Source of the DNA: Pseudomonas sp. P8_229
GTDB lineage: Bacteria; Pseudomonadota; Gammaproteobacteria; Pseudomonadales; Pseudomonadaceae
Assembly: GCF_034008635.1 (NCBI RefSeq)
Contig: NZ_CP125378.1
Coordinates: 5,766,501-5,830,500, forward strand
Length of the DNA stretch: 64,000 nucleotides
Direction: 5' to 3'
The first letter of the stretch is position 1. Each line of letters begins with the position of its first letter. This document shows, one piece after another, positions 1-9,420 of this stretch. Below the pieces are notes generated by a model. It was not told the DNA's origin. It ran no database searches and saw only the letters and a program-made list of their open reading frames with translations. Made by a program: the position numbers and the translations under genes.

Positions 1-3000
1 TGCCAGCGCTTGCAGGCAACGGGGCTCAATCCGCTACCTATCGCGGTCGCCAGCCTGAAAGAGCCGGGTTGCCTGAGCGTGGTCGAGAATTGGCTGGACG
101 CGGTCGAAGCGGCGGTGATTCTCAACACCACCGGGTTCGCTCAATCCAGCCCGGAAGCCCCGCATCTGCGGCCGTTCCGGCGCAATATTGCGGTGATCCA
201 GGCGATCTGCGCCCAGGACAACGAGCCGGGTTGGCGCGACAGCGAGCAAGGTCTCGGCCCGCGCGATCTGGCGATGCACATCGCCTTGCCGGAACTCGAT
301 GGACGCATCATCAGCCGGCCGATCAGCTTCAAGGATCTGGCCTGGCGCAGCGAGCGCAGTCAGTCCGACGTGGTCTGCTACCGGGCGCAACCCGAGCGCA
401 TGGATTTCGTCGCCGAACTGGCCCGGCGCTGGAGTGATCTGGCGCGGCTGCCGAATGCGCAAAAACGCATCGCGCTGATTCTCGCCAATTACCCGACCCG
501 CGACGGTCGCATCGGCAATGGCGTCGGCCTCGACACGCCGGCGGCGGCGTTGAATATCTTGCGGGCGTTGCAGGCTGAAGGTTTTCCGCTGACGGCACCG
601 CTGCCGGACAGCGGCACCGCGTTGATCCAGCAATTGCTCGGCGGCGTCAGCAATGATCTCGACAGCATCGACCTGCGTCCGTGCCAGCAAAGCTTGGGGA
701 TGGACGCTTATCTGGCGATGTTCAATGCGCTGCCCGAAGCCAATCGGACCGCCGTGGCGGAGCGCTGGGGCGCGCCGCAGAACGACCCGATGTGCCGCGA
801 CGGGCGGATGATGATCGCCGGTCTGCGCTTTGGCCTGACCTTCGTCGGTATTCAACCGGCACGCGGTTATCAGGTTGATCCGAGTGCGGTGTATCACGAC
901 CCGGATCTGGTGCCGCCCCACGGCTATCTGGCGTTCTATTTCTGGCTGCGCAACACCTACGGAGCGCACGCGGTGGTTCACGTCGGCAAGCACGGCAACC
1001 TCGAATGGCTGCCGGGCAAGGGCGTCGGCCTCTCGGAACACTGCTGGCCGGACGCGCTGCTCGGGCCGCTGCCGAACATCTATCCGTTTATCGTCAATGA
1101 CCCGGGCGAGGGCGCCCAGGCCAAACGGCGCACGCAAGCGGTGATCATCGACCACCTGATGCCGCCGCTGACCCGCGCCGAAACCTACGGCCCGCTGCGC
1201 AATCTGGAACTGCTGGCCGACGAATATTACGAAGCCCAGTTGCTCGACCCACGCCGCGCCCGCGAGCTGCAGCGCGACATCCTGCAACTGGTGCGCGAGA
1301 CGCAGATCGACCGCGAACTGCAGCTCGACGCCGGCCTGGACAGCGACGCCGACGCAGCGATCTGGCTGCCGCGTCTGGACACCTATCTGTGTGATCTGAA
1401 GGAATCGCAGATTCGCGACGGCCTGCACATTTTCGGCGAATCGCCGACCGGGCGTTTGCGCATCGACACGCTGCTGGCGTTGCTGCGCATTCCGCGTGGC
1501 GATGGCAAGGGCGCGCAGTCGAGTTTGTTGCGGGCGTTGGCCAAAGCCTTTGAGCTGGGGTTTGATCCGCTGGATTGCGCGTTGTCTGATCCGTGGCTCG
1601 GCCCGCGTCCGCAGGAGCTACAAGCCGTCAGCGACGAAATCTGGCGCACCGCCGGCGATACCCGCGAACGCCTCGAGCTGTTCGCCACTCAACTGATCGC
1701 CCTGACACTCCACGACCCCTGTAGGAGTGAGCCTGCTCGCGATGGCGTCAAGTCAGGCCATTCAGTGTTGAATGACACACTGCTATCGCGAGCAGGCTCA
1801 CTCCTACAGGGACCGCGTTGGGTGGAAGTCAGTGCGATCATTGAGCACCTGCGCGAAGTCGTCGCCCCGCGCCTCGACGCCTGCGGCCCTGCCGAAATGC
1901 GCGGCCTGCTCGATGCCCTGAACGGCCGCTTCGTGCCCGCCGGCCCAAGCGGCGCCCCCAGCCGTGGTCGTCTCGACGTGCTGCCCACCGGGCGCAACTT
2001 CTACTCGGTGGACGTGCGCAACCTGCCGACCACCACCGCGTGGCGCATTGGTTTCCAGTCCGCCACGCTGATTCTCGAGCGGCATCTGCAAGATCACGGC
2101 GATCACCTGCGTCAGCTCGGCCTGTCGGTGTGGGGCACGGCGACCATGCGCACCGGCGGTGACGACATCGCCCAGGCCATGGCCTTGATGGGCGTGCGTC
2201 CGGTGTGGGCCACCGGCAGTCAGCGGGTCGATGACTTCGAGATCCTGCCGCTGAGCCTGCTGGACCGGCCACGGGTCGATGTCACGCTGCGGGTCTCCGG
2301 GTTCTTCCGCGATGCCTTTGCCAACCTGATCCGCCTGTTCGACGCCGCCGTGCAAGCGGTGGCGGCGCTGGACGAACCGGACGATCTCAATCCGCTGGCG
2401 GCGAAAGTGCGCGCCGAGCGCGAGGCTCTGCTGCAATCGGGATTGGATGAAGACGCGGCGCGGCGGCAGGCCGGTTGGCGGATCTTCGGGGCCAAACCCG
2501 GAGCGTACGGAGCGGGCGTGCAGGGCGCCATCGACGGGCGCCTGTGGCAGAGTCGCGAGGATCTGGCCGAGGTCTATCTGAACTGGGGCGCCTACGCTTA
2601 CGGCGGTGCGGACGAGGGCACCGCTGCCCGCGAACAGTTCGTTCAGCGCCTGAGCCAGGTGCAAGCGGTGTTGCAGAATCAGGACAACCGCGAGCATGAC
2701 TTGCTCGACTCCAACGACTACTACCAGTTCCAGGGCGGCATGCTCGCGGCGGTGGAAACCCTGCGCGGAGAGGCGGCGGCCAGTTATCACGGCGATCACA
2801 GCCAGCCGGATCTGCCGAAAATCCGCACCCTGAAAGAGGAACTGAACCGGGTGATCCGCTCGCGCGCGGCCAATCCGAAATGGATCGACGGGGTCAAACG
2901 TCACGGCTATAAAGGCGCGTTCGAACTGGCGGCGACGGTCGACAACCTGTTCGCCTTCGATGCCACCACGCAACTGATCGACGATCATCAGTATGCGTTG

Positions 3001-3183
3001 CTGGCCGACGCTTATTTGCTCGACCCGGCGACCCGCGACTTTGTCCGCGAGCACAATCCGCATGCCCTGCGCGACATGACCGAGCGCATGCTGGAAGCGC
3101 AACAGCGCGGAATGTGGCAGGAGCCCGGCGTGTATAAAGAGGCCCTCGAAAACCTGCTGCTGGACATAGAAGAAGACACTTAA
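1..3183 (+). CDS. cobN: Cobaltochelatase large subunit CobN (5' end outside window)
   Basis: Large subunit of the ATP-dependent aerobic cobaltochelatase, which inserts Co2+ into hydrogenobyrinic acid a,c-diamide in cobalamin synthesis. The frame is open from base 1, so the N-terminus lies upstream; about 1060 codons of an expected ~1250 are seen. The family signature GKHGNLEWLPGKG lies near window codons 328-340, followed by the conserved IVNDPGEGAQAKRR block and, later, LPTGRNFYSVD. The stop at 3181-3183 is followed by a REPIN and then by the two other chelatase reading frames on the same strand. Oddity: a full REPIN at about 1718-1811 is read in frame, adding about 31 residues (CRSEPARD to SRAGSLLQ) just before the WVEVSAIIEHL segment. 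Identity is certain; whether the insert is tolerated cannot be seen. Confidence 0.95.
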   Translation, partial: CQRLQATGLNPLPIAVASLKEPGCLSVVENWLDAVEAAVILNTTGFAQSSPEAPHLRPFRRNIAVIQAICAQDNEPGWRDSEQGLGPRDLAMHIALPELDGRIISRPISFKDLAWRSERSQSDVVCYRAQPERMDFVAELARRWSDLARLPNAQKRIALILANYPTRDGRIGNGVGLDTPAAALNILRALQAEGFPLTAPLPDSGTALIQQLLGGVSNDLDSIDLRPCQQSLGMDAYLAMFNALPEANRTAVAERWGAPQNDPMCRDGRMMIAGLRFGLTFVGIQPARGYQVDPSAVYHDPDLVPPHGYLAFYFWLRNTYGAHAVVHVGKHGNLEWLPGKGVGLSEHCWPDALLGPLPNIYPFIVNDPGEGAQAKRRTQAVIIDHLMPPLTRAETYGPLRNLELLADEYYEAQLLDPRRARELQRDILQLVRETQIDRELQLDAGLDSDADAAIWLPRLDTYLCDLKESQIRDGLHIFGESPTGRLRIDTLLALLRIPRGDGKGAQSSLLRALAKAFELGFDPLDCALSDPWLGPRPQELQAVSDEIWRTAGDTRERLELFATQLIALTLHDPCRSEPARDGVKSGHSVLNDTLLSRAGSLLQGPRWVEVSAIIEHLREVVAPRLDACGPAEMRGLLDALNGRFVPAGPSGAPSRGRLDVLPTGRNFYSVDVRNLPTTTAWRIGFQSATLILERHLQDHGDHLRQLGLSVWGTATMRTGGDDIAQAMALMGVRPVWATGSQRVDDFEILPLSLLDRPRVDVTLRVSGFFRDAFANLIRLFDAAVQAVAALDEPDDLNPLAAKVRAEREALLQSGLDEDAARRQAGWRIFGAKPGAYGAGVQGAIDGRLWQSREDLAEVYLNWGAYAYGGADEGTAAREQFVQRLSQVQAVLQNQDNREHDLLDSNDYYQFQGGMLAAVETLRGEAAASYHGDHSQPDLPKIRTLKEELNRVIRSRAANPKWIDGVKRHGYKGAFELAATVDNLFAFDATTQLIDDHQYALLADAYLLDPATRDFVREHNPHALRDMTERMLEAQQRGMWQEPGVYKEALENLLLDIEEDT
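1718..1811. repeat. REPIN (inverted REP pair) inside cobN coding sequence
   Basis: Two inverted copies of the REP core are present: CTGTAGGAGTGAGCCTGCTC at about 1718 and its reverse complement ending near 1810. They are separated by about 50 bases. Unlike every other REPIN in the window, it lies inside an ORF. The reading phase of cobN avoids the TAG and TGA present in the other phases of the repeat. Confidence 0.93.
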
Positions 3184-3189
3184 CGCGGT

Positions 3190-3291
3190 TCCCCTGTGGG
3201 AGCGGGCTTGCTCGCGAAAGCGGTGTATCAGTGAAAGGTATATCGACTGACACGACGCCTTCGCGAGCAAGCCCGCTCCCACAGGGGATCA
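3190..3291. repeat. REPIN between cobN and chlI
   Basis: CCCCTGTGGGAGCGGGCTTG at about 3191 is matched by its reverse complement ending near 3291, with GCGAAAGCGGTGTATCAGTG-like sequence between the arms. This is the usual intergenic arrangement of fluorescens-group REPINs. Confidence 0.93.
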
Positions 3292-3344
3292 GGTTAGCTC
3301 CCAACGTTTTTCGATAGATCACCGACCATGACTGAGTATTGAAG

Positions 3345-4343
3345 ATGACCGACACCCCGCATTTCCCGCTCTCCGCCGTGGTCGGTGCCGATGACCTGAA
3401 ACTCGCTCTGTGCCTCACCGCCATCGACCCGAAAATCGGTGGCGTGCTGATTGAAGGCCCGCGTGGCATGGCCAAGTCGACCCTGGCCCGTGGCCTCGCC
3501 GACCTGCTGGCAAGCGGTCAGTTTGTCACGCTGCCGCTGGGCGCCACTGAAGAGCGTCTGATCGGCACCCTCGATCTCGACGCCGCGCTGAGTGAAGGGC
3601 GTGCGCAGTTTTCCCCCGGCGTGCTGGCCAAGGCCGACGGCGGTGTGCTGTACGTCGACGAAGTGAACCTGCTGCCCGATCATCTGGTGGATCTGCTGCT
3701 CGATGTGGCGGCCAGCGGCACCAACCTGATTGAGCGCGACGGTATTTCTCATCGGCATTCGGCGCGATTCGTGTTGATCGGCACGATGAACCCGGAAGAG
3801 GGCGAACTGCGTCCGCAACTGCTTGACCGTTTCGGCCTGAACGTCGCCCTCAGCGGTCACACCGCGCCGGCTGAACGCGGGCAGATCATCCGCCGCCGAC
3901 TGGATTTTGACAGCGAACCGCAGGCGTTCTGCGCGCTGTGGGAAACACAGCAGCAAGCCCTGCGTGAGCGTTGCGAGCGGGCGCGTAATGCCTTGCCGAG
4001 CATTCCACTGGACGACGAGGCCTTGGCACTGATCACGGAGCGTTGCTTTGCCGCCGGCGTCGATGGCTTGCGTGCCGATCTGGTCTGGCTGCGCGCTGCC
4101 CGGGCCCATGCGGCGTGGCGCGGCGCCGAAGCGATTGCCGAGCAAGACATCGACGCCGTGGCGGAATTCGCGCTGCGTCATCGCCGTCGTGAATCGCCTT
4201 CGTCCAGCCCTCGGCCACCCGCGCAGAACTCGGCCAATACCCAGGCCGAACCGAGCGAAGGGCAGGGGCAGTGGGGTGATATGCCCGCTCCGGCGCTGGC
4301 TACTGGCGCACGCCGCGAAGTGCCGAGCTGGCCAAAAAAGTAA
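3345..4343 (+). CDS. chlI: ChlI-like AAA+ ATPase, chelatase small subunit (zero-frame product)
   Basis: AAA+ ATPase of the magnesium/cobalt chelatase family (332 aa) that drives metal insertion by CobN. Walker A is GPRGMAKST near residues 40-48 and Walker B is GGVLYVDEVNLL near residues 103-114. The family block GTMNPEEGELRPQLLDRFGL follows at about 146-165, with the AAA lid domain after it. I chose ATG 3345 over TTG 3339 because it begins the family-typical MTDTPHFPLSAVVGAD; no strong ribosome-binding site precedes either start. The gene ends AAA AAG TAA on a slippery heptamer followed by a long hairpin, and the next frame encodes the VWA partner. The same mRNA is therefore likely to give both this short product and a 552-residue ChlI-VWA (ChlD-like) fusion. 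Confidence 0.93.
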   Translation: MTDTPHFPLSAVVGADDLKLALCLTAIDPKIGGVLIEGPRGMAKSTLARGLADLLASGQFVTLPLGATEERLIGTLDLDAALSEGRAQFSPGVLAKADGGVLYVDEVNLLPDHLVDLLLDVAASGTNLIERDGISHRHSARFVLIGTMNPEEGELRPQLLDRFGLNVALSGHTAPAERGQIIRRRLDFDSEPQAFCALWETQQQALRERCERARNALPSIPLDDEALALITERCFAAGVDGLRADLVWLRAARAHAAWRGAEAIAEQDIDAVAEFALRHRRRESPSSSPRPPAQNSANTQAEPSEGQGQWGDMPAPALATGARREVPSWPKK

Positions 4344-4383
4344 CTGGCATTCGTCCCCGATCCGACGCGGGGGCGAATGCCAG
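4334..4383 (+). promoter_or_regulatory. Programmed -1 ribosomal frameshift signal (slippery site plus hairpin)
   Basis: The slippery heptamer A AAA AAG is at 4334-4340 in zero-frame phase (CCA AAA AAG), directly before the TAA stop at 4341-4343. A 16-bp stem follows: CTGGCATTCGTCCCCG (4344-4359) pairs with CGGGGGCGAATGCCAG (4368-4383), perfect apart from one G-T pair, with an 8-base loop. A -1 slip reads G-TA as GTA and enters a frame open to 5002 that encodes the VWA domain. A AAA AAG is the dnaX-type slippery site of E. coli. Frameshifted chlD genes giving two chelatase subunits have been reported in cobalamin producers. No U-run follows, so this is not a terminator. Confidence 0.85.
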
Positions 4384-4447
4384 ACCCCGCGCCGGACGAC
4401 TCGACCACGGACGCCAGGGCCAGCGCCACGCCGCGCGCAGCGGCTCA

Positions 4448-5002
4448 GTGAACTGGCCGGGTACGCTGCTCAACGGTCAACCTCGAACACGGGAAGATTT
4501 GCAGTTCCAACTGCGCACGCGCTCCGCCCATGAGCTGTGGCTGGTAATTGTCGACGCGTCGGCCTCGACTCGTCGTCATCAGGCGCTGAGCGATGCCAAA
4601 GGCTTGCTCGCGCAATTGTTCGATGACGCCTATCGACAGCGCGCCCGTCTGGCATTACTGACTGCCAGCGGCAGCGCGCCGAAATGGCAGGTGCAGGGCT
4701 TGAAGGCGTCGAGCGGGTTGCGCTCTTGGCTGGAGGCGCTGGGGGCGAGCGGCGGCACGCCGTTGCTGGCGGCGTTGGCGCAGGCGCAGCAGTGGCTGGT
4801 GCAGCGACAAAAGCGCTTTCCCGTCGAGCAGCAGCGATTGCTGGTGGTCACGGACGGGCGCTTGAAAGCCTTGCCAGCGTTGCCGCCGTTGGGGTGTCCG
4901 GGGTTGTTGATCGACATCGAGCGTGGGCCGATCCGCCTGGCTCGAGCGCAGCAAATTGCGGCGGCGCTGAATGCGCAGTATCGGCATATCGATGATCTGT
5001 GA
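4448..5002 (+). CDS. chlD: VWA-domain chelatase subunit (ChlD C-terminal half), probably made by -1 frameshift
   Basis: VWA (integrin I-like) domain of the chelatase medium subunit. The MIDAS motif DASAST is in the segment LVIVDASASTRRHQALSDAKG, followed by a Gly/Thr motif (ASGGTPLL) and the terminal LLVVTDGR segment. GTG 4448 is the first conventional start, but the frame is open without a stop back to 4340. Its upstream codons encode GRLDHGRQGQRHAARSG, which resembles the Arg/Gly-rich linker that precedes the VWA domain in ChlD proteins. No ribosome-binding site precedes GTG 4448. I therefore think this domain is normally translated as the C-terminal 220 residues of a ChlI-VWA fusion (3345-4340, then 4340-5002). 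Independent initiation at 4448 or at a near-cognate CTG 4328 remains possible. Confidence 0.85.
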   Translation: MNWPGTLLNGQPRTREDLQFQLRTRSAHELWLVIVDASASTRRHQALSDAKGLLAQLFDDAYRQRARLALLTASGSAPKWQVQGLKASSGLRSWLEALGASGGTPLLAALAQAQQWLVQRQKRFPVEQQRLLVVTDGRLKALPALPPLGCPGLLIDIERGPIRLARAQQIAAALNAQYRHIDDL

Positions 5003-5013
5003 TGCCTGAAAGG

Positions 5014-5094
5014 GCCTCTTCGCGAGCAGGCTCGCTCCCACAAGGTTGGTGAACAGCGCTTCCCCTGTGGGAGCGAGCCTGCTCGCGAAAAGGT
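5014..5094. repeat. REPIN downstream of the chelatase genes
   Basis: Inverted REP arms TTCGCGAGCAGGCTCGCTCC (about 5018) and GGGAGCGAGCCTGCTCGCGA (about 5070-5089) lie in the intergenic space before the phospholipase D-like gene. Confidence 0.92.
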
Positions 5095-5174
5095 TCACTC
5101 GGTTGCAGATCTGCCGACCACAATTCGCAGCGCTGCTCTATGCTCCACTCCAGCCCAATCACAAGGAGTGAATC

Positions 5175-6821
5175 ATGCGGGTACTGGTTGCCAACCCTCA
5201 GGACGATTTTCGCGTCAAAGCCTACGCCGGCACCAACGGCGTGTTGCTCGCCATGGATCTGGCCGAACCCCGACGCAAAGGCCTGCTCGGTTTCGCCATC
5301 GAGAAGCAGCAGGGCGACAAGCCCTGGCTCTTTCTGTTCAACAGCCTGACATTTCCCGGCAAGACTCACACCTTCCCCCAATATCACGCCACGCCCAGCG
5401 ATAAGGCACCGTTGCAGAAATTCCGCTGGGCCGATTACGCGGTCAATCCGGGCACGACGATGCACTATCGCGTGCACCTGGCCTATGGCACGGCGGACGC
5501 GCCGCAGCTGGGCGAAACGCTGGAGCTGAGCATCACTTCCGATGACGGCCACCCGGCCAACCAGAGCGTGATCTTCAACCGCGCCGTGGCCGCCAGCCAG
5601 GCCTTTCAGCGCAAGTTTCCCGACCTCGACGCACAGATCAGCGCCAACAAGAACCTGCCCATCGAAGCCTGGCCCGACGCGGCGCGCCTGTGGCTGGAGA
5701 ACGGCCTGCTGGAGCGTTTGCTGGGGTACATCGAGCGTGCGGTGGACGCTCAGTGGGCGCTGGATATCGCGATCTACGAGTATCAGTTGCAGGCGATCAT
5801 CGATGCGGTGAACGCCGCGTTCGCCCGAGGAGTGCAAGTGCGCGTGCTGTATCACGCCCAACCGGGAGACCCCGATACGACCCTGAACGAAACCAACCTG
5901 GCGAAATTGCCAGCGGCGAACAAGCGCGGCCGGGTCACCCACGAGATCTTCCATGACAAGTTCATTGTCCTCAGCCGTGTCGATGGCGCCGGGCAGCGTC
6001 AGCCGCAAGCGGTGCTGTGCGGCAGCACCAATTTCACCGCCAATGGCGTGTATCGTCAGGCCAACGTGGTGCATACCCTCGACGACGTGACGATTGCCAC
6101 GCGTTATCTGCAAACGTTCGAAGAGGTCTGGGCGAACCCCGCGGACGTCGGCGCCACGCGCACCTGGATTACTGAACACAATCCGATGGACCCCACGCAA
6201 CCGCTGTTCGCCGGGTTCTCGCCACGCAGCGGCGGGGCCGATCTGCGCGAGTTCGTCGAGATCATCGAGGCAGCCAAAAAGGATGTGCTGTTCGTCACGG
6301 CGTTCAGCTTGCCGGACGCGATTCTCAACGCGCTGCTCGGCAAGCCCCATGACGATATCCTGCGCTACGGCCTGCAAAACACCGCCAGCAGCATCACGGG
6401 TTTTCACGCCGACCGTACGGCCGAATTCGCCGCCACGGCTTTGCTCAACACCGGGCTGGAAGGCTGGTTGAAGGAAAACATGAAAGGCCAGAAGGGCAAC
6501 CTGCTGGTGCACACCAAAGCCGTGATTACCGACTTCACCACAGACGCGCCGACCATCATCAGCGGCAGCCACAACCTCAGCACCTCGGCCAGCAATGGCA
6601 ATGACGAGAACTTCCTGATCATTCGTGGCGACACTGACCTGGCCGACCGCTATGGTCTGGAATTGCTGCGGTTCTACGAGCATTACCGCTTTCGCTATTT
6701 CGCGAAAAAACTGGAGCTGAAGCAGGTGAGTCCGCTGGCGGTGGATGACAGCTGGACCAACGATTACTACGTCGAGGGGGATTTGCGGCAGTTGTCGCGG
6801 TTGCGTTTTGCCGGGCGCTAG
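5175..6821 (+). CDS. Phospholipase D-like (HKD superfamily) protein
   Basis: A 548-residue protein with two PLD-type half sites. The first is HDKFIVLS near residues 260-267 with CGSTNFTANG about 20 residues later. The second is HTKAVITD near 446-453 with SGSHNLSTSASNGNDEN after it. These fit the HxK...N/E pattern of PLD phosphodiesterases and nucleases. The N-terminal ~170 residues are not recognisable; no signal peptide or membrane segment is seen, so it is probably cytoplasmic. A good ribosome-binding site (AAGGAGTG) precedes ATG 5175. Only about 70 bases separate it from the KAP ATPase gene on the same strand, so the two may be co-transcribed. Substrate is unknown (lipid or nucleic acid). 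Confidence 0.85.
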   Translation: MRVLVANPQDDFRVKAYAGTNGVLLAMDLAEPRRKGLLGFAIEKQQGDKPWLFLFNSLTFPGKTHTFPQYHATPSDKAPLQKFRWADYAVNPGTTMHYRVHLAYGTADAPQLGETLELSITSDDGHPANQSVIFNRAVAASQAFQRKFPDLDAQISANKNLPIEAWPDAARLWLENGLLERLLGYIERAVDAQWALDIAIYEYQLQAIIDAVNAAFARGVQVRVLYHAQPGDPDTTLNETNLAKLPAANKRGRVTHEIFHDKFIVLSRVDGAGQRQPQAVLCGSTNFTANGVYRQANVVHTLDDVTIATRYLQTFEEVWANPADVGATRTWITEHNPMDPTQPLFAGFSPRSGGADLREFVEIIEAAKKDVLFVTAFSLPDAILNALLGKPHDDILRYGLQNTASSITGFHADRTAEFAATALLNTGLEGWLKENMKGQKGNLLVHTKAVITDFTTDAPTIISGSHNLSTSASNGNDENFLIIRGDTDLADRYGLELLRFYEHYRFRYFAKKLELKQVSPLAVDDSWTNDYYVEGDLRQLSRLRFAGR

Positions 6822-6891
6822 TGAGATTCAGGTAGGTCGGTCGTACCCTCAAGTCTGTTTTTTACATTGGTCATACGAGCCGGAGTGCGTC

Positions 6892-9420
6892 ATGGACAGA
6901 ACGGAAAATGAATTTGAAAAGCGGGACGTCAGCACGGGTATTCCGGTGAACTCACCAGCCTCACAGACGATGGAGGAACTCTTGCAACCAGAGCGTCCGC
7001 AGCCTGAAAGTCTGGAACAGCAGACTAGCAAATCACGTAAAAACGCTTCGAAGAGAACCGGCACAAAACCCACAGGTCCTCTACCGAGCGTGCAAGATCT
7101 GGACACGTTAAAAGCGGCAGAGCTGGCGAGAGCCTTTGAGGCGGGCCAGGTGAAAAGAGCTGCAACTTCCATCGCTATCACCCAAAACGATGACCCGTGG
7201 GCAGCTGATCTCGATGATCGTCTGGGTGCCAACGATGAAGCGAAAGCCTTTGCGCGCCTGGCCGTTGCCAAGGATTTCACGCCACCGCTGGCAATCGGAT
7301 TATTTGGCAACTGGGGCAGCGGCAAGTCATTTTTCATGCGTTTGATCTATCAGCACATTGAGCGTCTGAGCGAGGGCAAGGCAAGTCCTCAGGCTCCCGA
7401 GGCCGGCTCAAAGGCTTTTCACACCGATGTTGTGCAGATTCGCTTCAATGCTTGGCATTACGCGGAAACCAATCTGTGGGCCAGTCTGGTCAGTCACTTG
7501 TTTACTGAACTGGATCGCTGGTACACAAAGCACAATCCCCAAGCGCCTGACCCACTGCTGGAGCATCTGTCGACTTCGCGAATGTTGACGCTGGATGCCG
7601 CTCAGGAACTGGTTCGCCGTCGCCGCGACCAGCGTGCTGCTTCGGAGCAGTTGCTCAAGGCCCGTAACGAACTGGAGGTGGCTCAAGCGAATACGGCCAG
7701 ATCGCCCTCGGTCTATCTTGCTGCGGTGAGCAAGGTGCTCGGCGCCAACAATGATGATAAAGAAATTCAAGACGCGAAAGTTGAATTAGAGAACGCTGCA
7801 AAGGTACTCGGGATCGATGTCCTGGCCAAGGGTGGGAAGGGCTTTCAAGACGTATCCAACGCGCTTTACGACGAGGCCGGGAAGGCAAAGTTGTTGGCTG
7901 GAGGATATAAGAATCAACTGCTGGACTGGTGGAGCGTAGGCATCTTCGCGCTGGTCATTCTGGCGTTGCCCTGGATCGCGACAGAAGGGATGGCGTTACT
8001 GAAAAGGCAATTACCTTTTCTGGAAAACCTGCACGAAAGTCTGACGTTGTTGAGTTGTGTAGTCGTAGCCGTGACCGCGCGCTTGCGCTGGGTCTGGGGG
8101 AAGGTTCACGGCGCGTTGACTCATCTGGAAGCGGGAAAGGAGGCTCTGGATAAAGTCATCAGGCAACGCCTCGCAGGGCAGGAAAAAACACTCGATGAGG
8201 CCCAGCAACACCTGGCACGGATGAATGCTGATGTTGATGAGGCCAAGGCTCTGGTTCAGGCCACCAGCGAACATTTGGCGCATGCGACTCACGACTTTTC
8301 TCAAGGCACCGGTGCCGGACGCTTGAAGAAGTTCGTGAGAGCCCGGGCGACCGATGGCGACTACGCGCAACATCTCGGGCTGATTGCCACGGTGCGAAAG
8401 GACTTTGAAGAGCTGGCCTTCAATGTGGCCGAGGGGGGCAGCCTCAAGGCGTCGGTCGAAGCCGAACGAGCGGCATTCAAGGCGAAAATGGACAAGTTTC
8501 TGGATGACAACAAGTCGCTGTTGGATGATGAGGACAGACAGAAGCTCAATGCTGCGGCGACGCACGAGCCTGTCGAAGTCCAATCCTTCAAACGTATTGC
8601 GTTGTACATCGACGATCTGGATCGCTGCCCGCCGGATAAGGTCGTCGAGGTCTTGCAAGCTGTGCATTTACTGCTGACCTTTCCGTTGTTTGTAGTGTTG
8701 GTAGCTGTGGATGTTCGGTGGGTACGCAAGGCACTGCTCCAGCATTATCCGAATTTGATGGCAGGGGCTGGCGAACAGCTGGAGACGGCCTCGGTCTCTG
8801 ACTATCTGGAGAAGATCTTCCAGATTCCTTATTGGATGCGCCCGATGGACAGTGCTTCGAGTGAACAGTTTTTGCAGAGCCAGTTGGACAGGATAAAAGG
8901 CAGCGGGTCTGCCAGTATCGTCCTGCCAACGCCGGGCCAGCCGCCCGTGGTCGTTCCTGAAAGCGCTGAAGAGGTTCCGACGGAAACGTTGAACATGACT
9001 CTGGCTGAGTCAGAAGCACTGCAAAAACTTGCTCCATACATAGGTTCCTCACCGCGTCGCGCACTTCGTTTTTTGAATGTCTATCGAGTGATCAAAGCCA
9101 GCCACAAATCAGAAGATCTGAAGGCGCTTGAAGAGAGTGAATACAAAGCGCTGCTCACGTTATTGGCTATTTCGATGGCGACACCACGTTATTTCTCGAA
9201 TCTGCTCCAGAACCTCATGAGGAGGTCAGATGGTATCGAAATGAGCGAGATAGGTACGCTGGTCAACCTCCAGTCCACCAATGTAAACGTCGCGGAATAC
9301 GACCGCTTTGAGGCTATTGTGGCGGTCTATGTCGACCTGAATTTGAAAGAGAAGAGCAACCCGAAACATCGGGTAAAAAAATACGCTGCAATTATCCAGC
9401 GCTACTCCTTTGAAGGCTGA
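6892..9420 (+). CDS. KAP-family P-loop NTPase (membrane-anchored)
   Basis: An 842-residue protein. Walker A GNWGSGKS is at residues 139-146, preceded by the typical LAVAKDFTPPLAIGLF. FNAWHYAETNLWASL follows, the hallmark of KAP NTPases. Two hydrophobic segments lie near residues 348-368 and 380-398, inserted between the Walker motifs together with long charged, Ala/Glu-rich helices likely to form coiled coils. Walker B is IALYIDDLDRCPPDKV near 569-584, and SPRRALRFLNVYR near 720 is a sensor-2-like segment. The first ~85 residues are polar and low in complexity. I chose ATG 6892 because the frame upstream runs into the previous gene. Codon use and GC look lower than in flanking housekeeping genes, suggesting transfer. 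Some KAP ATPases (for example PifA) act in phage exclusion; the role here is unknown. Confidence 0.88.
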   Translation: MDRTENEFEKRDVSTGIPVNSPASQTMEELLQPERPQPESLEQQTSKSRKNASKRTGTKPTGPLPSVQDLDTLKAAELARAFEAGQVKRAATSIAITQNDDPWAADLDDRLGANDEAKAFARLAVAKDFTPPLAIGLFGNWGSGKSFFMRLIYQHIERLSEGKASPQAPEAGSKAFHTDVVQIRFNAWHYAETNLWASLVSHLFTELDRWYTKHNPQAPDPLLEHLSTSRMLTLDAAQELVRRRRDQRAASEQLLKARNELEVAQANTARSPSVYLAAVSKVLGANNDDKEIQDAKVELENAAKVLGIDVLAKGGKGFQDVSNALYDEAGKAKLLAGGYKNQLLDWWSVGIFALVILALPWIATEGMALLKRQLPFLENLHESLTLLSCVVVAVTARLRWVWGKVHGALTHLEAGKEALDKVIRQRLAGQEKTLDEAQQHLARMNADVDEAKALVQATSEHLAHATHDFSQGTGAGRLKKFVRARATDGDYAQHLGLIATVRKDFEELAFNVAEGGSLKASVEAERAAFKAKMDKFLDDNKSLLDDEDRQKLNAAATHEPVEVQSFKRIALYIDDLDRCPPDKVVEVLQAVHLLLTFPLFVVLVAVDVRWVRKALLQHYPNLMAGAGEQLETASVSDYLEKIFQIPYWMRPMDSASSEQFLQSQLDRIKGSGSASIVLPTPGQPPVVVPESAEEVPTETLNMTLAESEALQKLAPYIGSSPRRALRFLNVYRVIKASHKSEDLKALEESEYKALLTLLAISMATPRYFSNLLQNLMRRSDGIEMSEIGTLVNLQSTNVNVAEYDRFEAIVAVYVDLNLKEKSNPKHRVKKYAAIIQRYSFEG

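Follow-up and report, generated by a model that had tools for sequence, protein, structure and literature searches.

A conserved, very probable -1 frameshift site between the ChlI-like and VWA frames of a predicted cobalt chelatase gene, fs-chlD, in Pseudomonas sp. P8_229

The window (the whole 64,000-nt stretch of Pseudomonas sp. P8_229 DNA analyzed here) carries a real -1 frameshift site. The locus is very probably an fs-chlD gene that serves the aerobic cobalt chelatase of B12 synthesis through programmed -1 frameshifting, as a sequence-only reading had proposed. This interpretation is supported by a conserved heptamer and stem, the coding character of the -1 frame, and domain homology, and a match to CobS or CobT is absent. 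The site is already known in Pseudomonas, and the window is one more instance, because the mechanism is reported in this genus in the available portions of three publications (PMC3711429, PMC5009743, and PMC9227772); the earlier description of it as reported for other chlD genes was right about the mechanism and understated, Pseudomonas itself being named.

Ribosomes that do not slip would terminate at the TAA at 4341, giving the ChlI-like AAA+ subunit of 332 aa. At A AAA AAG, with tRNA-Lys in both the P and A sites, the stem at 4344-4383 may hinder translocation, and a fraction of ribosomes would slip by -1, reading GTA ACT GGC onward, to produce an AAA-linker-VWA medium subunit of 552 aa. 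Both products would act with CobN as a CobN-ChlI-ChlD chelatase. Slippage in Pseudomonas sp. P8_229, its efficiency, and the chelatase function are what we infer. The features of the locus are as follows, in window coordinates.

1-3183, plus strand: 3' part of cobN, the partner large subunit (1282 aa), whose gene starts 666 bases before the window
3345-4343, plus strand: zero-frame ORF of the small AAA+ subunit (ChlI-like), from ATG 3345, 332 aa, ending AAA AAG TAA
4334-4340, plus strand: slippery heptamer A AAA AAG in slipping phase, kept in 137 of 140 Pseudomonas loci
4341-4343, plus strand: zero-frame stop TAA, abutting the heptamer
4340-5002, plus strand: -1-frame extension, a linker and then a VWA (integrin I-like) domain, predicted to complete the 552-aa ChlD-like medium subunit
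4344-4383, plus strand: predicted stimulatory stem-loop, with arms at 4344-4359 and 4368-4383 and a loop at 4360-4367
4382-4447, plus strand: linker stretch from the stem core to GTG 4448, constrained as -1-frame coding sequence according to Fitch changes at the three codon positions

Reading frames of the locus

Codon by codon, the zero frame ends CCA (4332-4334), AAA (4335-4337), AAG (4338-4340), and TAA (4341-4343), and the heptamer proposed to lie in slipping phase directly before the stop is read there. The -1 frame is open from 4340 to 5002 (220 codons and then a stop), and the VWA domain ascribed to it agrees with both the open frame and a PF13519 match. Because 332 aa of the zero frame are followed by 220 codons of the -1 frame, the fusion has 552 aa, and the two product lengths predicted earlier fit the frames. 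The earliest -1-frame start codon in the window is GTG 4448; the linker preceding it is, by eye, abundant in Arg and Gly, as had been claimed.

The marks of an fs-chlD gene found here are an AAA+ small-subunit frame with a VWA frame behind it, displaced by -1; a conserved A-rich slippery heptamer, in phase and close to the zero-frame stop; a conserved downstream RNA structure, for which two of four shuffle measures lie within the shuffle range; and cobN in a genome where no separate small-subunit gene was found. Those of a programmed -1 site are an X XXY YYZ heptamer, a 5-nt spacer to the stem core, and a 3' stem.

Conservation of the slippery heptamer

An AAA gene was found in 142 of 149 Pseudomonas genomes, and 140 loci, including that of the window, were compared at one genome per species, two genomes with partial matches being left out. 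The alignment across the genus that had been suggested as a check places A AAA AAG in slipping phase at 137 of these 140 loci. Among the exceptions, L065 and L144 have an altered heptamer, and the site of L143 was not located by the script. All three carry additional frame breaks within the same genes, and cobN is broken too in the genomes of two of them (G052 and G034), which indicates poor assembly or decay.

The codon preceding AAA is CCA in 99 of the 137 loci, GCA in 31, ACA in 3, CAA in 2, TCA in 1, and CTA in 1. It always ends in A, by definition of the heptamer, while the encoded amino acid varies, and CCA and GCA constitute 12% of the Pro codons and 8% of the Ala codons in these ORFs, respectively. 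On its own, A AAA AAG is no rarity, with 11 copies counted across the two strands of the window versus 4.8 expected; the weight rests on its phase, on its conservation, and on the absence of any further AAAAAAG from the upstream parts of the 137 AAA ORFs. Seven Pseudomonas genomes have no AAA match: five of them have no CobN match, G060 and G082 encode a weaker, longer CobN-like protein, and G041, G042, and G060 contain a sub-cut-off CobT match.

The zero-frame stop lies 0 nt from the heptamer in 2 of the 137 loci (that of the window included), 3 nt in 133, and 21 nt in 2. In L073 and L082, the stop near the heptamer is lost, and the small subunit would read through part of the stem, ending 21 nt past the heptamer.

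The abutting stop of the window is the starting point for an alternative in which frameshifting acts as a switch for regulation instead of fixing the subunit ratio. A release factor would compete with slippage there, and the small-to-medium subunit ratio would respond to metal ions or to the state of termination, adding a layer of control to that of the cobalamin riboswitch. We consider such a switch improbable.

Downstream stem-loop and spacer

The stem comprises 16 pairs, with a G-U at 4354/4373, and the core common to relatives is 4346-4359/4368-4381. The 80-nt fold of 4341-4420 has an energy of -45.2 kcal/mol (z -5.2; 0 of 200 shuffles equal it), and the stem is also present in the 161-nt fold of 4300-4460 (z -3.5). 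The best register is identical, without gaps, in 123 of the 137 loci (109 distinct sequences), for which 1000 column shuffles, ignoring relatedness, served as the control. Regarding the compensated changes that had been suggested as a check, two measures exceed all shuffles, namely, the paired stem cells (88.9% versus a shuffle mean of 86.3% and maximum of 87.4%, with slid controls at 33-50%) and the cells changed on both sides (50 versus a mean of 19 and maximum of 30). Two others do not: the stem pairs with a both-sided change number 8, equal to the shuffle maximum of 8, and the extra pair types number 18, below the maximum of 19. The most variable inner pair (10/35) is found as C-G (76), T-A (44), T-G (16), and G-C (1), never as C-A, with 18 pair-state changes on the tree; in a strict independent-pairs test, this pair, with only 2-3 both-sided among 12 pairs, too few for a decision, is not significant. 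In some lineages, the stem is shorter and occupies the same position, and agreement with the register is poor at L140-L142, the most divergent sites.

The 16-bp stem of the sequence-only reading stands, whereas its unusual 3-base spacer is due to two extra pairs at the stem base, a species-level feature, with the core 5-6 nt away. In the window, TAACT precedes GGCAT, and C4344-G4383 and T4345-A4382 pair, leaving 3 nt to the window's own stem base and 5 nt to the core common to relatives. This contiguous two-pair extension occurs in 2 of the 123 gapless sites, L001 (that of the window) and L126. The core begins 5 nt past the heptamer in 85 of the 137 loci and farther away if its first pair is non-standard, and in 77 of the 137 minimum-energy folds, some pair starts 0-3 nt past the heptamer. 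In many studied -1 frameshift sites, the spacer is about 5-9 nt, according to the available text of PMC5009743.

A search for known RNA families at the site returned one other-strand match only, far under the gathering score. No Shine-Dalgarno-like upstream stimulator was seen in the window (-2.2 kcal/mol); across the set, an internal Shine-Dalgarno sequence at <= -6 kcal/mol occurs at 22% of sites versus 9% of random control positions.

Translation of the -1 frame ahead of any start codon

In the 58 species with an ungapped linker, the Fitch changes over 4382-4447 number 92, 81, and 292 at -1-frame codon positions 1, 2, and 3, respectively. A start codon before codon 36 is present in 13 of the 58, and their removal gave the same outcome, with 69, 57, and 221 changes in the other 45. 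Because the changes are codon-like and there is no earlier start, this stretch is translated in the -1 frame by ribosomes that come from upstream. The first -1-frame start codons are scattered over codons 1-68 in the 137 loci, with ATG in 7, a position at codon 53 or later in 18, and a position at codon 68, where the VWA domain begins, in 6; no conserved -1-frame start codon was found among the Pseudomonas loci compared. Relatives with separate frames, conserved starts of their own, and no slippery site had been named as the refuting case, and the relatives instead present scattered starts and a heptamer kept at 137 of 140 loci.

These data bear on an arrangement of two cistrons, in which reinitiation or coupling lets ribosomes begin the VWA ORF separately at GTG 4448 and the heptamer plays no part. 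An in-frame GTG does exist at 4448, and downstream initiation accompanied frameshifting in some experiments described in the available text of PMC3711429. The arrangement nevertheless has very little probability, given the conserved heptamer, the scattered starts, and the coding constraint ahead of 4448, which persists in the 45 species that have no start codon before codon 36; an independent start for the VWA ORF is disfavored by these starts and codon-like changes.

It is equally hard to credit that transcriptional rather than ribosomal slippage in the A-run joins the frames. Such runs can slip RNA polymerase, and there are seven A in L008 and L017 and ten in L156, a locus of the wider gammaproteobacterial set, but the run of the window has just six A, and the loci preserve both the phase of the heptamer and a stem behind it at a distance suited to ribosomal slippage. 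Moreover, the available part of PMC3711429 assigns realignment to A-runs above 7. An error of assembly, or a pseudogene split by decay, is suggested by one family-length protein spread over two frames and by scattered frame breaks in 3 of the 140 loci. It deserves almost no credence: 137 of 140 loci, with one genome per species, break at the identical base, which refutes it unless the whole set has a common artifact; the -1-frame change is codon-like; and cobN is intact in the same genome.

Domain identities and gene neighborhood

The zero-frame half matches TIGR02442 (E 1e-123) and ChlI TIGR02030 (E 2.1e-103), both under the curated cut-off, and also ChlD TIGR02031. Its closest solved sequences are ChlI (6l8d and 8osf) and the 38 kDa subunit 1g8p (ChlI/BchI), and a Walker A-like GPRGMAKST and a Walker B-like VLYVDEVN can be recognized in it by eye. 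The -1-frame half matches PF13519 VWA_2 (E 2.1e-9), the C-terminal parts of TIGR02442 (E 9.8e-22) and ChlD, and 2x31, the Mg-chelatase 60 kDa subunit (E 1.8e-6), and its VWA domain contains, by eye, a DASAS metal-site motif. The curated cut-off of TIGR02442, the putative cobaltochelatase family, is 779.45 bits, versus 414.1 and 77.1 bits for the zero-frame and -1-frame halves, each scored alone. No curated NCBIfam cut-off is reached by either half, in keeping with their being parts; TIGR02442 is the best family as judged by homology, and the locus is not filed as a member.

Upstream of fs-chlD lie a cobalamin riboswitch, cobW, and, immediately upstream, cobN. The riboswitch (RF00174; L155 7951-8162, plus strand, 101.6 bits) faces cobW-cobN-fs-chlD. 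The part of cobN in the window scores 1493.7 bits against TIGR02257, above the cut-off, and the entire gene (L155 9335-13183), intact in this genome, scores 1724.4 bits. No match to CobS or CobT (TIGR01650 and TIGR01651) was found in the genome at E 0.001, and, apart from fs-chlD itself, the strongest AAA match there to the small subunit has an E value of 1.4e-8. A ChlI-like and ChlD-like pair that would partner CobN, as claimed earlier, accords with the ChlI and ChlD/VWA homology, the adjoining cobN, and the unmatched CobS and CobT. A search of 3100-5200 for an intrinsic terminator or promoter-like site found none.

A second, divergent cobalamin riboswitch (L155 6771-6992, minus strand, 95.8 bits) is located upstream of the window and faces minus-strand ORFs, including a tetrapyrrole methylase-like gene (L155 4500-5246). 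Inverted-repeat pairs at 3190-3288, between cobN and chlD, and at 5015-5093 flank fs-chlD; their arms of 43 and 31 nt are 91-94% complementary, and a unit is common to both sides. These repeats resemble REP/REPIN doublets. Farther downstream, a PLD-like protein (5175-6821) precedes and overlaps a KAP P-loop NTPase ORF (6745-9420). The pair has partial PADLOC matches, the best being DrmC (2.9e-8) and QatA (1.1e-16), and is possibly defense-like, judging from these similarities.

Comparison with other gammaproteobacteria and with known systems

Matches were obtained in 17 of 274 gammaproteobacterial genomes, including that of P8_229, and 11 of the 16 other loci were analyzed; L166-L169 and L171, which carry another AAA gene in addition to one that is ChlI-like, were left out. 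The AAA and VWA parts share one frame at 6 of the 11 loci (L157, L162-L165, and L170), and a -1 arrangement with the heptamer in phase is present at 2 (L156 and L161). L158, in which the VWA pieces are spread over two frames, and L159 and L160, with no VWA detected, were counted for neither side. L161, from another gammaproteobacterial family, shares the GCAAAAAAGCCCTGA site, and hence the heptamer, with the window, whereas its stem is a different one, GC-rich and beginning at the stop.

In the available text of PMC3711429, Pseudomonas belongs to a magnesium chelatase cluster, which counts 23 -1 fs-genes, and three cassettes frameshift at 63, 40, and 10%; the A-runs of the tested cassettes are 11, 9, and 7, unlike the A6G here. 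The available part of PMC5009743 names Pseudomonas, describes A_AAA_AAR as being under strong purifying selection, and prints a P. protegens stem, GGCATCCGCCCCC...GGGGGCGGATGCC, which agrees with forms among the compared loci. According to the accessible portion of PMC9227772, P. aeruginosa represents stage 8, in which the fs-chlD frameshifting signal yields both cobalt chelatase subunits, with Antonov 2020 cited. The window shares with these reports the genus, the gene, an A-rich slippery site, a downstream stem, the -1 direction, and two products, and differs in having no base between heptamer and stop (2 of 137) and a stem base longer by two contiguous pairs (2 of 123 gapless sites).

One-frame ChlD/BchD and TIGR02442 proteins have the same domain order, AAA and then VWA, but no frame change, and fused homologues of this kind occur in other gammaproteobacteria. 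In dnaX, frameshifting leads to the shorter product, whereas in the fs-chlD of the window, the shift would lead to the longer one. The dnaX gene of E. coli and relatives resembles fs-chlD in its A AAA AAG-type site, its downstream hairpin, and its two subunits of one complex, and differs in having an upstream Shine-Dalgarno-like stimulator (PMC3711429, available text), of which none was seen in the window. CobS and CobT of CobNST fill the corresponding roles beside CobN, as given in the accessible part of PMC9227772, but are encoded by separate genes, and neither family was matched in the P8_229 genome.

Implications

The 137 natural variants, which differ in spacer, stem length, and stop position, provide a panel for what sets the frameshift rate. 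A two-gene annotation of the locus loses the real medium subunit. Programmed -1 frameshifting at fs-chlD would explain how a B12-making Pseudomonas with no separate chlI, cobS, or cobT gene found obtains both AAA+ subunits of the cobalt chelatase.
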